From Cliona cf. orientalis (taxonomy: Eukaryota > Porifera > Demospongiae > Clionaida > Clionaidae), in NCBI GenBank assembly GCA_963930775.1, contig OZ005696.1, forward strand, positions 1,302,001-1,366,000: a DNA stretch of 64,000 bases, read 5' to 3'. Of this stretch, positions 49,181 through 62,376 are shown one piece after another. A program made the position numbers and the translations under genes. How positions within the stretch are numbered: position 1 is the stretch's first letter; every line of letters begins with the position of its first letter. The notes beneath the pieces were generated by a model that searched no databases, had not been told where the DNA came from, and saw only the letters and a list, made by a program, of their open reading frames with translations.

Positions 49181-52105
49181 ATGGGCGAATCAGACCACAA
49201 CTTGCAAATCCAGAAGAACTTTTACCAGGCGATCGAGGAGCCGCCTGAAGAATCGACAAGACGGAGAGGCTGTCGCTGCAGGTTGGACGGCTCCGTGATA
49301 AAACTCATCGGCGCCACTCTGTGTATTGCAGGAGCAATAGCAACATGTACGCTACGAGTAACTCGTAAACATCCTGTAGTAAGCTACTGGTACATTACCC
49401 CCTCAAATCAGCCTGACATGTACGGCACTATTTGTGAGGATAATTGATTGAAGGTCCAATTTGAAGTTGAGGCAGGCATAAATAAATTAAATTCCAGTAG
49501 AATAACAATGTCATGTGATCTGTGGCACTATTTTCAGTATAAATGAACAGTGCCATGACTGGCATTTCAAGTGTAGAAAGAATGCAGTGATACGTACCGT
49601 TCATTCCAGTGTATCAAGGCGTGTTCTGTAGCTAATGGACTAAGAATGCAATGCCTATATAGGCAAAGCTCCCAAGGCCTAGCATTTGCAAAACATCGAT
49701 ATCATCATAATACTATTATCATGGATTGTATATTAGCTACTACTTTAATAATAGAGTCTACTGACTCGATCATAGTGCTTGTCTGGCTGCAAGGCCTATG
49801 CCATGGTTCATGTACCTATAGGAATCATTGAAAAGTAAACTTTGCCAGGAGTTTGAAAGGGCTGAATATAATGAAGCCACGTACTGTGTGGTTAGCTTTC
49901 CCAACTCCATGTACTATACACTAGCCACAAATAGTCATTTGAAAGATCACATGATTTAATTCCATGTGAGAGATGAATATTTTTGACATTAATTTTTCTG
50001 TGTCTTATACTGATACTGTCCATTCACAGGGATTGCGTTGGCTGAGAAACTCCAGGGACTCAGTGAAAAGTACCCAAAGTTCTACTTTCTGACCTACTGG
50101 ATTCACTCCTTCTATTCAGTCTTGTATCTAGCATGGAAATTTTGGAGGTACAATTAAACCCTGACAATAGTATTATAATGAATTGAGTAATTACAGGTTA
50201 TTCCCTGGAAAATTCTCCTGCAATGAAACTGGTGATGGCAAACTGGAGTGGAGCTTCCTGTATGTAACAGTATAATACATTATCCATATCCTGATAAAAA
50301 ACCCAAAACATTAATTATTGCGTGGTTATTAATTATTTCCTTCAGACGCATGGTGATTGTGAGTGGCGGTTTGTCTCTGCTGGGATTCATCTCTGCCTAC
50401 GCTTGGTACCTCTCTCTACCAAGAACTCCGTAAGGACTTATGATAATATCGTGACATGTGCATGATCACTTCCTTATACTGATCATGTGGTACTTCTATG
50501 CACGGCTTTACCCTAGTATATCAAATTTCAAACCACCTGTGCATGGCATAGAATTGTGTGTACATAATATTGTATAATAATTATGTTATGGTATTGCAGA
50601 TTACAGCGGGGATGTTAATAATATTATTGTACATGTACTCCATTCGTTGATTATTGTTAGTGGTTAGGCAGTTTTATTATAGTACAGCTATTGCATCCAT
50701 ACAATGGCACAATCATTATTATTACTGTGTGCCCGGGTTGCTTCAATAGAATTCCTGCCAACACTGCCATCTACCAGTCTGCTGCTGCTTTCGTTTTCGT
50801 CATCTCTGTTCCACTGCTCAGAGAAAGGGTTACCCTGATCAAGGTATGTAAGAACTTACTGTTTTACCAGGAGCATAATGTTATTATGATCCTGTGAGAT
50901 ACATGTACTATCGTATGAGCTTAAAATTCATGATAAACAATGAAAATTATTGCAGGTTTTGTGTGTGCTACTATCAGTAGGCGGAGTGACACTCGTATCA
51001 TTCTATTCCAACTCGGAAAATAATTGCTCATCGGCTCAAAATCATACCCAAAACCACACCCACATCAACAATGCTAGTGACATATCGGGTCACATTGTCT
51101 CTCACTTGAATCCCAAAGGAGTGACCTGTAGTCCTGAAAAAAGTACACCTCTTGGATACATTGTAAGGGGCTCTCTCTCTCTCTCTCTAGATCTGCATAT
51201 TTACTATGAAACACTAGAAATTAAGTGGGATCACTCATTCCACATTAATTTTTATTTCTGCAGTATCTAGTGATGAGTGTCGTAACATATGCTCTACTGG
51301 AAACTTGTTTCAAGAAGTTTGCCACTATCAAGGACGACCCAGCAGCTCTGTGCAATGGAGTCAGACTGGTTGGCTACTATGGCGTTCACACACTCCTCTG
51401 GATGTGGCCTCCACTCATCCTCCTCCACTACACGAAGATTGAGGTATTCGAGCTGCCCTCTGTGGAGATGCTGAAGCTGATGGTCCTCAATGGTTTTCTG
51501 GATGTTGGATTCAACGGTTGCCTCTTTGTTGGTATAGCTCTCTCATCTCCGCTCTTCATGACGTGAGTTTAGTATGAATTAAACGAGAAATCTAAACAAA
51601 CCAAATCACTTAAGAAATTTATTCCATTTTGCATTAATTTTTAGCATTTAAAGTACTGTGGCATGCATGCTTCAATTTTTATCATGCTAACTTGACGACC
51701 TTGTACCAATTAACGGCATTTTATTGATTGGTACAGGGTCGTCAATATCACTGCCTTGTTTGCCCAAGTGCTTTTACTCTGTATTTACATTTACATAGGG
51801 TTGGCACTATATTGGCAATACCGGCATCAGTCATAGTGGACTGGATGGTGCAGAAATACCTCCTCCCGTGGCAAGCGTTCATCGGCATTGGGCTCATCAT
51901 CCTGGGGTTTATGGGATTCGCCTTCGCCGAGTTTCTGGCTGCCTGGAGGGAGCAGAAACACGAGAAACTAAAGGAACATCAGCGAAAATTGTTACTGTCT
52001 GCATCGTCAAGATCTGGAGAATCATGTGACTCCAGCCCCTTGTTGCTAAGCAACAGGTCGGAAAAGAGAACTTTGAGAAAGATGGTCATTAAATATTTGA
52101 TTTGA
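49181..52105 (+). CDS. SLC35F-like transporter, copy 2, complete, 8 exons
   Basis: Exons 49181-49346, 50030-50147, 50197-50259, 50346-50429, 50750-50843, 50956-51162, 51264-51562 and 51799-52105; 445 residues. Exon number, lengths and phases match copy 1 almost exactly (two exons each 3 nt shorter), and the protein is closely similar throughout, so the pair is a recent tandem duplication. Differences concentrate in the hydrophilic loop (ENNCSSAQNHTQNHT against DKDCQGPSQNHNHTQ). The start codon is only 32 bp downstream of the Mutator-like element, which may therefore supply promoter or 5' UTR sequence. Transport role as for copy 1, inferred from family only. Confidence 0.85.
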
Positions 52106-53249
52106 GGTTACACAGTTCTAAGTATTAGTGTTGTAGTTGGAATCATTATTTTTTTTTGCATTCTGTACTAAATATTATTGATTTCTCTGATCATGTGTGC
52201 AATCATAGAGGTCGTCAGCTAGTGCGCATGCGCATAATGGGATCACTCATTCCACATTAATTTTTATTTCTGCAGTATCTAGTGATGAGTGTCGTAACAT
52301 ATGCTCTACTGGAAACTTGTTTCAAGAAGTTTGCCACTATCAAGGACGACCCAGCAGCTCTGTGCAATGGAGTCAGACTGGTTGGCTACTATGGCGTTCA
52401 CACACTCCTCTGGATGTGGCCTCCACTCATCCTCCTCCACTACACGAAGATTGAGGTATTCGAGCTGCCCTCTGTGGAGATGCTGAAGCTGATGGTCCTC
52501 AATGGTTTTCTGGATGTTGGATTCAACGGTTGCCTCTTTGTTGGTATAGCTCTCTCATCTCCGCTCTTCATGACGTGAGTTTAGTATGAATTAAACGAGA
52601 AATCTAAACAAACCAAATCACTTAAGAAATTTATTCCATTTTGCATTAATTTTTAGCATTTAAAGTACTGTGGCATGCATGCTTCAATTTTTATCATGCT
52701 AACTTGACGACCTTGTACCAATTAACGGCATTTTATTGATTGGTACAGGGTCGTCAATATCACTGCCTTGTTTGCCCAAGTGCTTTTACTCTGTATTTAC
52801 ATTTACATAGGGTTGGCACTATATTGGCAATACCGGCATCAGTCATAGTGGACTGGATGGTGCAGAAATACCTCCTCCCGTGGCAAGCGTTCATCGGCAT
52901 TGGGCTCATCATCCTGGGGTTTATGGGATTCGCCTTCGCCGAGTTTCTGGCTGCCTGGAGGGAGCAGAAACACGAGAAACTAAAGGAACATCAGCGAAAA
53001 TTGTTACTGTCTGCATCGTCAAGATCTGGAGAATCATGTGACTCCAGCCCCTTGTTGCTAAGCAACAGGTCGGAAAAGAGAACTTTGAGAAAGATGGTCA
53101 TTAAATATTTGATTTGAGGTTACACAGTTCTAAGTATTAGTGTTGTAGTTGGAATCATTATTTTTTTTTGCATTCTGTACTAAATATTATTGATTTCTCT
53201 GATCATGTGTGCAATCATAGAGGTCGTCAGCTAGTGCGCATGCGCATAA
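51226..53249 (+). repeat. 1,012-bp direct tandem duplication (two units)
   Basis: Units 51226-52237 and 52238-53249 appear identical along their whole length. TGGG occurs at both unit starts and again at 53250-53253, a 4-bp microhomology at the junctions. Each unit spans the end of intron 6, exons 7 and 8, the 3' UTR and the TGCGCATGCGCA motif of the next promoter. Confidence 0.95.
52276..53117 (+). pseudogene. Orphan duplicated exons 7 and 8 of SLC35F copy 2
   Basis: Exon 7 copy 52276-52574 and exon 8 copy 52811-53117 match 51264-51562 and 51799-52105 base for base as far as I can read, with acceptor and donor intact. There are no upstream exons 1-6, so this is a gene fragment unless the upstream gene splices past its own exons 7-8 into this pair, which would yield the same protein with a different 3' end. 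Confidence 0.85.
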
Positions 53250-53583
53250 TGGGCGCGGGCAGCACACCCTGTATCTGTACCCGGAAGTGCCTCAAAATGT
53301 GCTGGCTCAGCAAAGTTTCGTTCCGCTACTCATCGATCCACGATTGACCGACCTTTCAACATCCTAAAAGCCTTCCCCTTCTGATCTGGTGTACGATACA
53401 TGGTGTTTGTATGTGCAGGTGTGCAGACGTAACTACTACTAATCCTTTGCGTGTACTCTGGCGGTGTCCTGTGTGAAGACTGATAGCGGGCGGAACTGAA
53501 AAGGACAACCCATCCCAGTTGGTTTTAATACGCAAGAGAGACTCATATTTTCATCGATCGTCAGATATCAACCATCGTCGATC
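53250..53583 (+). promoter_or_regulatory. MOB3 upstream region
   Basis: Begins within the duplication junction. A TGCGCATGCGCA palindrome at 53235-53246 and GGGCGCGGGC follow directly, about 340 bp before the MOB3 ATG. The motif is also present at 52223-52234 in the first unit, so the duplication copied a promoter element. Confidence 0.55.
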
Positions 53584-58838
<5,255 letters not shown>

Positions 58839-59503
58839 TACTGCTAGATAGAGAGGAATGGATAATATGTTATAGATACACGTACCCTGACCCTCTATAT
58901 CACCTCTTCACTTAGAATACTGCATGTGTATCGTCGTATAAAGCAACTCTTGTTGACAAGTTTATGTGATGGAAATCTATAGCAGCTATTAAAAATTATT
59001 ATGTACATGTACATGTATACAGAAATTATTGTCTTATTTTATGTATATAAATAACGTATTATCTTATATCAAGGGCTTATTGATACCAAATCTGAATGCA
59101 CATGGTACCATGGTACCATGGTACGGGGATGATGGTGGTAATGGTCGTCAAATCACCCAGTTAATTGCTCGTTGCCCCGCCCAACTCCACCCCTCTGTCC
59201 GTGCCAACGTTACCTCAGCTCAAGTTGTAGATCTTGCGGGTGATTACTGTACGTAAGTAGAGGACGTACAGTTCGACAAGTGAGCTAGCTACCTACAGAT
59301 CAATGAATATAGCAGTATGTACTATAAATTATATTATGTTTTTTTATATATAACAGATTTCAGCTCGTGACTGGTGATAAATGCTGAACTGACAATTTCC
59401 GAGTCAATTTCGTTGCAATTACTCAGGGAGAGCAAGCCACAATTTGTTTTTACTTTTGCAAAATCATCTCCAGTAGTGGCCTGCTATCTTTTATTTTTCA
59501 TCA
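58839..59503 (+). promoter_or_regulatory. Upstream region and probable 5' UTR intron of the kinase-MOB gene
   Basis: A donor CTGTAC|GTAAGT at about 59252 and an acceptor ATATAACAG at about 59356 would remove a short intron in the 5' UTR. A triple GGTACCAT repeat lies at 59102-59125. No supported coding exon is present, and the kinase ATG at 59504 begins the family-like sequence. Confidence 0.45.
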
Positions 59504-61343
59504 ATGGCTGCAAGAGCTACCTTTGCTGGCTTGGATCCTTACAAATTGAGTGGAAATGAAGTTCGAGTGACAGATCGAGAGCTGGGACATGGCTCCTACG
59601 CCACTGTACTAGAACTGGAGTACATGGGACTGAAATGTGCTGGCAAGAAGATCCATGAAATGCTACTAAGGCAGGGAGATGACACGTACGCTGTTTGTAG
59701 ATTTGAAGAAGAATGCTGTCTACTTAGTCAAGTGCGCCACCCTAATATTGTCCAGTTTCTGGGAGTCTGTTTCAAAGATGGTTTACACGCTCCCATCCTA
59801 GTCATGGAGTATCTCCCCGCAAATCTCACTACATGCATTGAGCAATACGGCATTCTACCAAAGAATATCACCTATTCCATCCTTCACGACGTGGCTCTAG
59901 GCTTATGCTACCTCCACAGCCAAACTCCTCCCATCATTCACCGAGACCTCTCTTCCAACAATGTCCTTCTCACCTCCAGCATGACTGCCAAAATCTCTGA
60001 CCTCGGTGTAGCCAGGATCCTCAATTTGACCCCTCTACAGGTCAGCCACATGACACAGACTCCTGGCACCCCTGCCTACATGCCACCAGAGGTTATGGTA
60101 GCCAACCCCAAATACAACACAAGTGTTGATACGTTCTCCTATGGCATCATGATGATACACGCATTCAGTGGTATGTGGCCAGAGCCACAAATTGGACCAA
60201 ACCGTACCGAGCCCGATGGTAGACTGATTCCAGTTTCGGAAGCCGAGAGACGTGAGGAGTTTCTTCAAGCCATTGGAAACGATCACCCTGTGATGGACCT
60301 CATTCTCAATTGTATCAATAATCACCCACAGGCAAGAACTCAAGCCAGCGAGATCACGGAGCGACTTTCAGGCATGGTATTGCAGTTTCCTGCTTCCTTT
60401 GTCAACAGGCTCGATATGCTGAGACATATTGAAGCTGTCGACAGCGAGAAACAAACTTTGAGGGAAGAAGTTGAGCGACTGAATGCAGAAGTCGAAGAAA
60501 GCAGGGAGGTAGTTTCGAGTTTGAGGGCACACGAGGAGAAACTGTTTGATCACATGGAGGAAGAGAAGAGAGGGCTGAGAGAAGAAGTAGCTATACTGTG
60601 TACTGAGAATAGCAGATTAAGAGCTAGTGAGCACGAGAGAGTGGCTGCAGAAGTATCGAGGCTGGCAGAAGAGGGAGAAAGACAGAAAAATGAGGAGATA
60701 ACGAAGCTCATTCAGAACCACAAAACTGAGATTAGTTTGATGAGCATGGAGCACTCTAGTAAAGTCAGACAGTTGCAGTTAGAGCTAAGAGAACTAAAGG
60801 CTCAGCTTTCCAAATATGTCAGTAACAAACCGAACTCTGAAGTGCACTTGAAGATAGGAGTCAATGATACCAAGTTGATGCAAGAGGCTGAGGTATGCTG
60901 TAAGACAGGCAATGACATGTGAAGGCCACCTAGTCTACATGTGCTGTGCTCACGTGTGCAAATAGTGTGGCAGGAATGTTATTGTTATGAATTGCCATAT
61001 GCTCTAAGATTAAATATAGGAAGACAATATAACTCGCAGCTGCGTACGTTTGAGTCTTTCTACAGACTAAGTACGTAGTTTGACTTCAGATAATACATGT
61101 CCTCCCATCTCCATGTTTGGCATGCAGGCAGCTTTGTAATGACTCGTTTACACGGTTGATAATGTGCTGTATCTCTTTCAACAGGTATTCCACACATACC
61201 ACCCAGATTCACAGCTACAAGAACTCCTCAAGAGAAATAAAGTATGTTTACTTCATCTAAAAAGTATTGCATGACTTTGATCACTATAATAATTATGCTA
61301 CTAATGTTGTGTTTATCATATACTCCCCCTCTTCCTCCTCCCC

Positions 61344-61401
<58 letters not shown>

Positions 61402-62376
61402 TTCTCCCTCCCTCCCTATCCCTCCCCCCCCCCCCCCCCACAGCATCGTGTAATGACATGTGAAGATGCAAGAACACTGAGGCAGGTTGTGGAGCTACCG
61501 GAAGGTGTCAGACGTGAAAGCTGGGTAGCGTTAAATTTAATGGATTTCTACGGCAGAATTAGTGTCATTTATGAGACTGTACGTCACGCTTGCACTGATG
61601 CTAGCTGTCCTAAGATGACTGGAGGACCCAAATTTGTGTATCGGTGGAGCGATGAAAAGCATCTAAAGCCTCAAAATGTGTCCGCACCACAGGTATTAAT
61701 TGAAGATTAGTTTAATGATAGAAGGGGTACTAGCATTAGTATTGCTGCTATTCCGGATCCAGTACGTTGCCAAGCTGATGAGATGGACCGAGGATCACAT
61801 GAAAAATGAACAGCTCTTCCCCAGGAAGGCTGGTAAGTATATACATTACTGCACTCTATATAGCTATACCAAATCTGTTTTTTGTTGTGTGCTATGATGT
61901 GATATTATGTTTACAATTTGGGACAAAGTCCAGATTATCTCTCCTATCAAGTAAACACAATTATGCTTAATAATTCTAGGTGTGCTATCATCAGAAACAT
62001 GTATGCCAGTGTACAAGAAGATCCTGACTAGACTCTATCGTGTCTTCGTCCACCTCTATGTGATTCACTTTGATGCATTTCTAGAGATAAAACAGGTAAA
62101 GGAATTCCTAGTCTTATCTGCGTACACTGTATTCTATAGATTAACATCCTTCTCTAGGAGACTAATCTCAATTCCTGCTACATTCATTTCTACTATTTTG
62201 TGAGGGAGTTTGACATTGTAGCTTCAAAAGAGTTTGAGCCGCTGGTAAGTCAATAGCTACTGTTAACTTGAGATCAAGTCTTCTTTATTATTGAATTTCA
62301 CTCTCAATACCACACGATTGCACATCTGCAGCTAGACCTCAATTTTCAACTCATTGAGAAAAGAAAACTTCAATAA
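59504..62376 (+). CDS. Predicted fusion: TKL-like protein kinase + coiled coil + MOB domain
   Basis: Exon 1 (59504-60892, 463 codons) encodes a kinase with glycine loop GHGSYATV (28-35), lysine K48, catalytic HRDLSSNN (146-153), a DLG in place of DFG (166-168) and PPE (194-196), then a charged coiled coil at about 310-440. It ends in phase 0 at GAG|GTATGC. Further exons 61185-61241, 61444-61692, 61763-61832, 61980-62095, 62158-62244 and 62332-62376 encode a MOB domain ([52 protein letters not shown]) with both Cys and both His zinc ligands. Each MOB exon matches MOB3 next door in position and phase, and the last shares LNFQ. Total about 670 residues. No separate MOB start exon exists. An unspliced kinase-only form would stop at 60922. 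The kinase resembles large poriferan TKL-like families. Fusion is predicted from junctions, not proven. Confidence 0.72.
61346..61399 (+). repeat. (CT)n tract before kinase-MOB exon 3
   Basis: A CT run followed by a C run and CCCACAG, forming the acceptor region of the third exon. Confidence 0.9.

Follow-up and report, generated by a model that had tools for sequence, protein, structure and literature searches.

The window analysed here, which is the whole stretch of 64,000 nucleotides from the sponge Cliona cf. orientalis (contig OZ005696.1, positions 1302001-1366000), very probably contains a single gene whose product of about 670 residues joins a TKL-like kinase, a long coiled coil and a MOB domain, in that order (Table 1). 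MOB proteins are small separate adaptors that normally act as stand-alone partners of kinases. The kinase-MOB architecture put forward in the original prediction is supported in that the position of the splice donor that ends the kinase exon is conserved, MOB sequences occur on contigs equal in size to those that carry related kinases, and the exon structure agrees with that of the kinase family. We infer the join of 60892 to 61185 from the sequence, and a splice junction between these two positions is the clear prediction of such a fusion. Among the matches listed in a literature search, no MOB-kinase fusion appeared in the titles and abstract openings, which does not by itself establish its absence from print, and the terms fusion, fused, kinase domain, additional domain, domain architecture and multidomain do not occur in the main-text portion of PMC2684140.

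Table 1. Features of the proposed kinase-MOB gene and of the MOB gene upstream of it
Feature	Coordinates	Strand	Remarks
Upstream MOB3-like gene, 7 exons	53584-58838	+	probable parent of the MOB half
Upstream MOB exons 1-3	53584-53664, 54261-54326, 55576-55815	+	
Upstream MOB exons 4-7	55981-56050, 57046-57161, 57458-57544, 58794-58838	+	
Proposed fusion exon 1, TKL-like kinase and coiled coil	59504-60892	+	463 codons
Splice donor GTATGC after GAG, phase 0	60893-60898	+	V codon in 8/8 relatives, less conservation beyond it; matrix score among the top 2.1% of GT sites
Read-through tail VCCKTGNDM and stop	60893-60922	+	used solely upon intron retention
Proposed kinase-MOB intron, 292 bases	60893-61184	+	ATTAAA hexamer at 61009
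Proposed fusion exon 2, homologue of MOB exon 2, 19 codons	61185-61241	+	acceptor tctctttcaacag
Proposed fusion exon 3, MOB core, predicted zinc cysteines	61444-61692	+	82-88% identical to three proteins elsewhere
Proposed fusion exon 4	61763-61832	+	exon joining, Pfam
Proposed fusion exon 5, predicted zinc histidines, putative phosphate-binding residues	61980-62095	+	Pfam, MOB1A alignment
Proposed fusion exon 6	62158-62244	+	exon joining, Pfam
Proposed fusion exon 7	62332-62376	+	stop TAA overlaps AATAAA at 62372; exon joining

Exons of the two halves and the upstream MOB copy

As predicted originally, the kinase and the coiled coil are encoded by a single exon that ends in phase 0 at GAG/GTATGC, which was confirmed by the open reading frame, by Pfam and by the reading of the donor. 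The kinase ORF in the list for the window (59504-60922, intronless, 472 amino acids) matched the Pkinase (132 bits) and PK_Tyr_Ser-Thr (122 bits) profiles over residues 24-288, and its predicted kinase motifs GHGSYATV for the Gly loop, CAGKK for the VAIK lysine, HRDLSSNN for HRD and DLG, the last replacing DFG, are identical in the eight nearest relatives (P0001-P0008). The solved structures nearest to the kinase were TNNI3K (E 3e-25) and CTR1 (4e-24), followed by WNK, with STK24 of the STE20 group at a lower rank (6e-19), in a ranking by sequence and not by a kinome tree. Judged in this way, the kinase appears to be of neither the STE20 nor the NDR type and to lie outside the Hippo core. In the AlphaFold2 model of kinase and coil, which had a mean pLDDT of 53.2 and a poor kinase part and was used solely for the helix, residues 298-439 of the exon form one helix that is confidently predicted at about 311-430. 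The coil suggests dimer formation.

The six downstream exons have GT donors, AG acceptors and a frame that remains open through to the stop, and when joined they scored 189.6 bits against the PF03637 profile (cut-off 27). According to PMC7761452, the zinc ligands of human MOB1A are C79, C84, H161 and H166, and in an alignment read by hand these correspond to C69, C74, H150 and H155 of the MOB part. The expectation that these exons copy MOB exons 2-7 with the same phases and four predicted zinc ligands thus held in the MOB1A alignment and in the comparison with the upstream MOB3-like gene, which probably gave rise to the MOB half by tandem duplication. Exons 4-7 are equal in length in both copies (70, 116, 87 and 45 bases), exon 2 has 66 bases upstream and 57 in the fused copy, exon 3 has 240 and 249, respectively, and the phases of upstream exons 2-7 agree with those of the six fused exons. 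The short last exon is also alike in length, with a 14-residue peptide in one copy and LDLNFQLIEKRKLQ in the other. Like class III, MOB3-like proteins, the fused copy retains the zinc ligands, and it agrees with the upstream gene in its exon phases and in the length of most exons, but it is without exon 1 and without a 10-residue segment. Over 207 aligned codons the two copies share 51% identity; pN is 0.302 and pS 0.806 (dS being saturated), and the lower pN is compatible with protein constraint in at least one MOB copy and probably in both. The upstream copy shows 62% identity to human MOB3A and 55% to residues 30-211 of MOB1A, and the fused copy is equidistant from MOB3A (43%) and MOB1A (42%).

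A perfect tandem duplication was observed elsewhere in the window, where positions 51226-52241 are repeated at 52238-53253 (1016 bases, period 1012). It lies in the apparent last exons of a gene that by eye is transporter-like, and it represents either a recent event or an assembly artefact.

Only exon 1 is absent from the second MOB copy, and the kinase-coiled coil exon occupies its place. When a remnant of MOB exon 1 was sought in 58839-61184, no significant one was found at the DNA level (the best of nine matches had an E of 1.4), and the exon 1 peptide gave no match in the same interval. The 55 other ATG-to-GT first-exon candidates in 58840-61165 reached a donor score of 3.9 at best, which is below the score of the kinase donor (6.4) and below those of the MOB donors (5.0-12.2). 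The claim that no alternative first exon accompanies this MOB copy is therefore in agreement with both searches. Exon 1 of the upstream MOB gene ends in phase 0 and could be joined in frame to the second MOB half, the kinase then being nested in a long intron. However, such splicing would skip six good exons and would leave the conserved donor of the kinase without an acceptor of its own, and we consider it very improbable.

Conservation of the exon end and MOB sequences on other contigs

A protein search with the kinase yielded 4038 relatives at E<=0.001 among 7996 scored candidates, and among the best 120 of these the nearest were P0001-P0008, which show 76-95% identity over 98-99% of the query. 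In these eight kinases the sequence is kept up to QEAE (QE-E in P0006), the residues at the exon end, and is mostly divergent beyond it. Across all pairs of the nine kinases, the last 60 columns of the exon had 1502 identical cells out of 2032, and the columns beyond had 134 out of 406, with the shared V counted. A valine codon (GTN) is present at the donor position in all eight relatives, and C or S follows it in seven of them, as expected from reading through GTATGY or GTRAGY donors. The tails past the donor have 4 to 33 residues in the relatives and nine in the window, and they are mostly unlike the tail of the window; since P0003 and P0005 have tails of equal length that are alike at 27 of 33 residues, nearly as similar as the exon itself, the drop in identity past the donor is not seen in every pair.

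The strength of the donor was evaluated with a matrix built from 11 donors of the two MOB genes and 22 paralogue donors, the latter chosen by motif and three of them being repeats of the same loci. The score of the kinase donor was matched or bettered by 2.1% of the 3685 GT sites on the plus strand of the window; it falls within the range of the MOB donors, which are themselves in the matrix, and is weaker than those of the paralogue kinases (10.8-14.9). The ATTAAA hexamer inside the kinase-MOB intron could yield a truncated kinase isoform, and together with the weaker donor it makes such an isoform conceivable alongside the fusion.

A search with MOB exon 3, whose 88-residue query restricted the candidates to proteins of about 48-154 residues, produced three candidates and three matches (P0121-P0123), in all of which both zinc cysteines are present. 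Their contigs measure 353005, 459279 and 5270 bases, which are the sizes of the contigs of P0006, P0008 and P0005, respectively. The linkage of kinase and MOB was judged here by equal contig sizes and not by contig names, order or strand, but two six-digit sizes shared with two of the eight nearest kinases make a chance agreement very unlikely. On the 5270-base contig both halves would fall within 5.3 kb. The other five relatives (P0001-P0004 and P0007) gave no MOB match. Their contigs are short, at 2154 to 8504 bases, and the calling of ORFs in the protein database that supplied the eight kinases may miss small exons. A region search for a spliced kinase protein carrying this MOB returned none at E<=0.001 among 327 candidates of 367-1169 amino acids, in a database that for the kinase family seems to consist of unspliced assembly ORFs. 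Orthologous DNA was sought with the window kinase in viral contigs (two pattern matches) and with P0006 in genome contigs (20), and no relative was confirmed among these matches.

A tree was built from 70 rows, namely the window kinase, 40 proteins drawn from the 120 listed and 29 of the 30 own-genome paralogue loci; in it, the window kinase and P0001-P0008 formed one clade with support of 100/95, in which P0005 and P0008 branch first. In the genome from which the window comes (216.8 Mb in 149 contigs), the next best of the 90 scored matches after the window kinase was 79% identical and covered residues 1-343; with no match near the window kinase, P0005, P0006 and P0008 do not come from this assembly. 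By this sequence comparison, the kinase-MOB arrangement seems to predate the divergence of these lineages. With its 95% identity, P0001 may represent an allele from the species of the window. Absence of the fusion from relatives had been named at the outset as an argument against it, and so far the relatives favour the fusion, since both halves seem to be present on three further contigs.

The data were also considered in terms of two neighbouring genes, that is, a kinase ending at 60922 and a MOB gene that has an unseen first exon or starts at a methionine in exon 3. The stop of the kinase ORF 30 bases beyond the donor and the ATTAAA hexamer at 61009 would fit such an arrangement. So would the methionine, which precedes CEDARTLRQVV in all four sequences of the fused-MOB lineage and not in the upstream copy; it could be an internal start for a MOB-only protein, although in P0122 and P0123 it stands as the called start. 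Moreover, chimeric gene models are a known artefact and a source of false architectures (PMC3927609). Nevertheless, the nine-residue tail is poorly kept among the relatives, in contrast to the conserved sequence that ends in GAG, none of the first-exon candidates has a donor to match those of the MOB genes, no significant exon 1 remnant was found, and a downstream exon is usual in the kinase family. The linkage on other contigs and the conserved exon end likewise speak against a chimeric gene model at this locus, and the two-gene explanation appears improbable to us.

Finally, a kinase exon might have been placed before a dead MOB copy by an assembly error or a chance insertion, and the 1016-base duplication at 51226-53253, a possible assembly artefact, would fit this reading. 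Against this, both halves recur three times on equal-sized contigs, the reading frame stays open across the joined exons, and the two MOB copies have a pN much lower than their pS; such an origin is extremely improbable.

The kinase-coiled coil-Kelch family

The window kinase belongs to a very large family with Kelch as its usual partner, which the original prediction had not seen. In the own genome 1340 candidate stretches were found for this family, of which the 90 mentioned above were scored, and many of these 90 are clustered on one contig, for instance at C4:10.3-10.8 Mb. The paralogues keep kinase and coil in one exon, and in many of them a phase-0 donor ends the coil, mostly as CAG/GTGAGT; motif reading located this donor at 19 of the 30 distinct loci. 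At 22 of the 30 loci the kinase is followed on its strand by a Kelch exon, which was seen at 19 within the first flanks and at three of six after longer flanks were taken. Kelch was not found in the longer flanks of L021, L024 and L027, and five more loci were examined in the first flanks only. We infer that the Kelch exons of the family are spliced to the kinases.

In the window, tblastn with one family Kelch exon gave no match at E<=0.001. Conversely, MOB gave no match in the 30 paralogue kinase loci, and the MOB loci that were fetched from other parts of the genome had no kinase of the family in their 1.5 kb flanks (10 of 15 own-genome MOB matches were fetched, three of these in the window). 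The proposed fusion thus resembles the kinase-coiled coil-Kelch family in its kinase, which is 68-82% identical in the kinase part compared at the fetched loci, and in its coil, single exon and phase-0 donor, whereas its C-terminal module is MOB and not Kelch.

A conserved Kelch-to-MOB swap at the same intron position is the simplest reading of the sequence data. The kinase-coiled coil exon of a Kelch family member would have come to stand before a tandem copy of the MOB3-like gene, its phase-0 donor would have become joined to the acceptor of MOB exon 2, likewise in phase 0, and MOB would thereby have replaced Kelch as the C-terminal module. If this is true, the fusion would show how a large kinase family gains partners by the exchange of exon modules at a fixed intron phase.

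Two further arrangements were observed in the own genome. At L049 (C4:10427800-10431300, minus strand), about 1-2 kb downstream of L027, there are ORFs that by eye resemble SH2 and a tyrosine kinase, and they could represent either a second partner swap or a mere neighbour. At L013 and L014, the catalytic-loop motif of the TKL-like kinase is preceded at about 1.7 kb, in the same orientation, by a version of the tyrosine kinase type, HRDLAARN.

Predicted function of the kinase-MOB protein

The basic residues of MOB1A that bind phosphate are K153, R154 and R157 (PMC5461540), and at these positions the alignment made by hand places T, R and R in the MOB part, as in the upstream MOB copy. Human MOB3 proteins are reported to bind an MST1 phosphopeptide with a Kd of 2-3 micromolar (PMC5461540), and class III MOBs associate with Hippo-type kinases, with no stable binding of NDR kinases (PMC7096357). 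The link to NDR/LATS kinases drawn in the original prediction has become less likely, because the upstream MOB copy is nearer to MOB3A than to MOB1A and class III MOBs behave as described in PMC7096357. The self-scaffolded Hippo-like module suggested in that prediction is a hypothetical possibility. Likewise, the MOB3-MST1 binding and the class III behaviour favour the docking of a phosphorylated partner over the direct activation of an NDR kinase.

The coiled coil would then bring two chains together as a dimer, and the MOB domain, with its predicted zinc site and with basic residues kept at two of the three phosphate-binding positions, would dock a phosphorylated partner beside the kinase. 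The docked segment might be a phospho-threonine of the protein itself or of a STE20 kinase, and such docking would parallel a possible docking of substrates by Kelch in the parent family. We put forward this role in dimerization and phospho-docking tentatively, at somewhat less than even confidence. As in the MOB1-MST1/2-LATS system of the Hippo pathway, a MOB and a kinase would be brought together, and phosphopeptide docking would be the common principle (PMC5461540); in contrast, MOB acts there in trans on AGC/STE20 kinases, and here it would be attached to a TKL-like kinase. A conserved covalent link of MOB to a kinase other than the STE20 and NDR types would offer a natural setting in which to see how tethering affects MOB-dependent signalling.

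The threonine of the linker (NDTK) was considered as a docking site for MOB and was rejected, as it is not conserved (A in P0002 and I in P0005). A phospho-switch within one chain, in which the coiled coil dimerises the kinase, the kinase phosphorylates a STE20 partner or the linker of its own chain, and MOB binds the product in cis or across the dimer, seems unlikely; if true, it would be one product of a large modular kinase family whose C-terminal domains are exchanged at a single phase-0 intron, and it would condense a two-protein interaction of the Hippo type into one self-scaffolding signalling protein.
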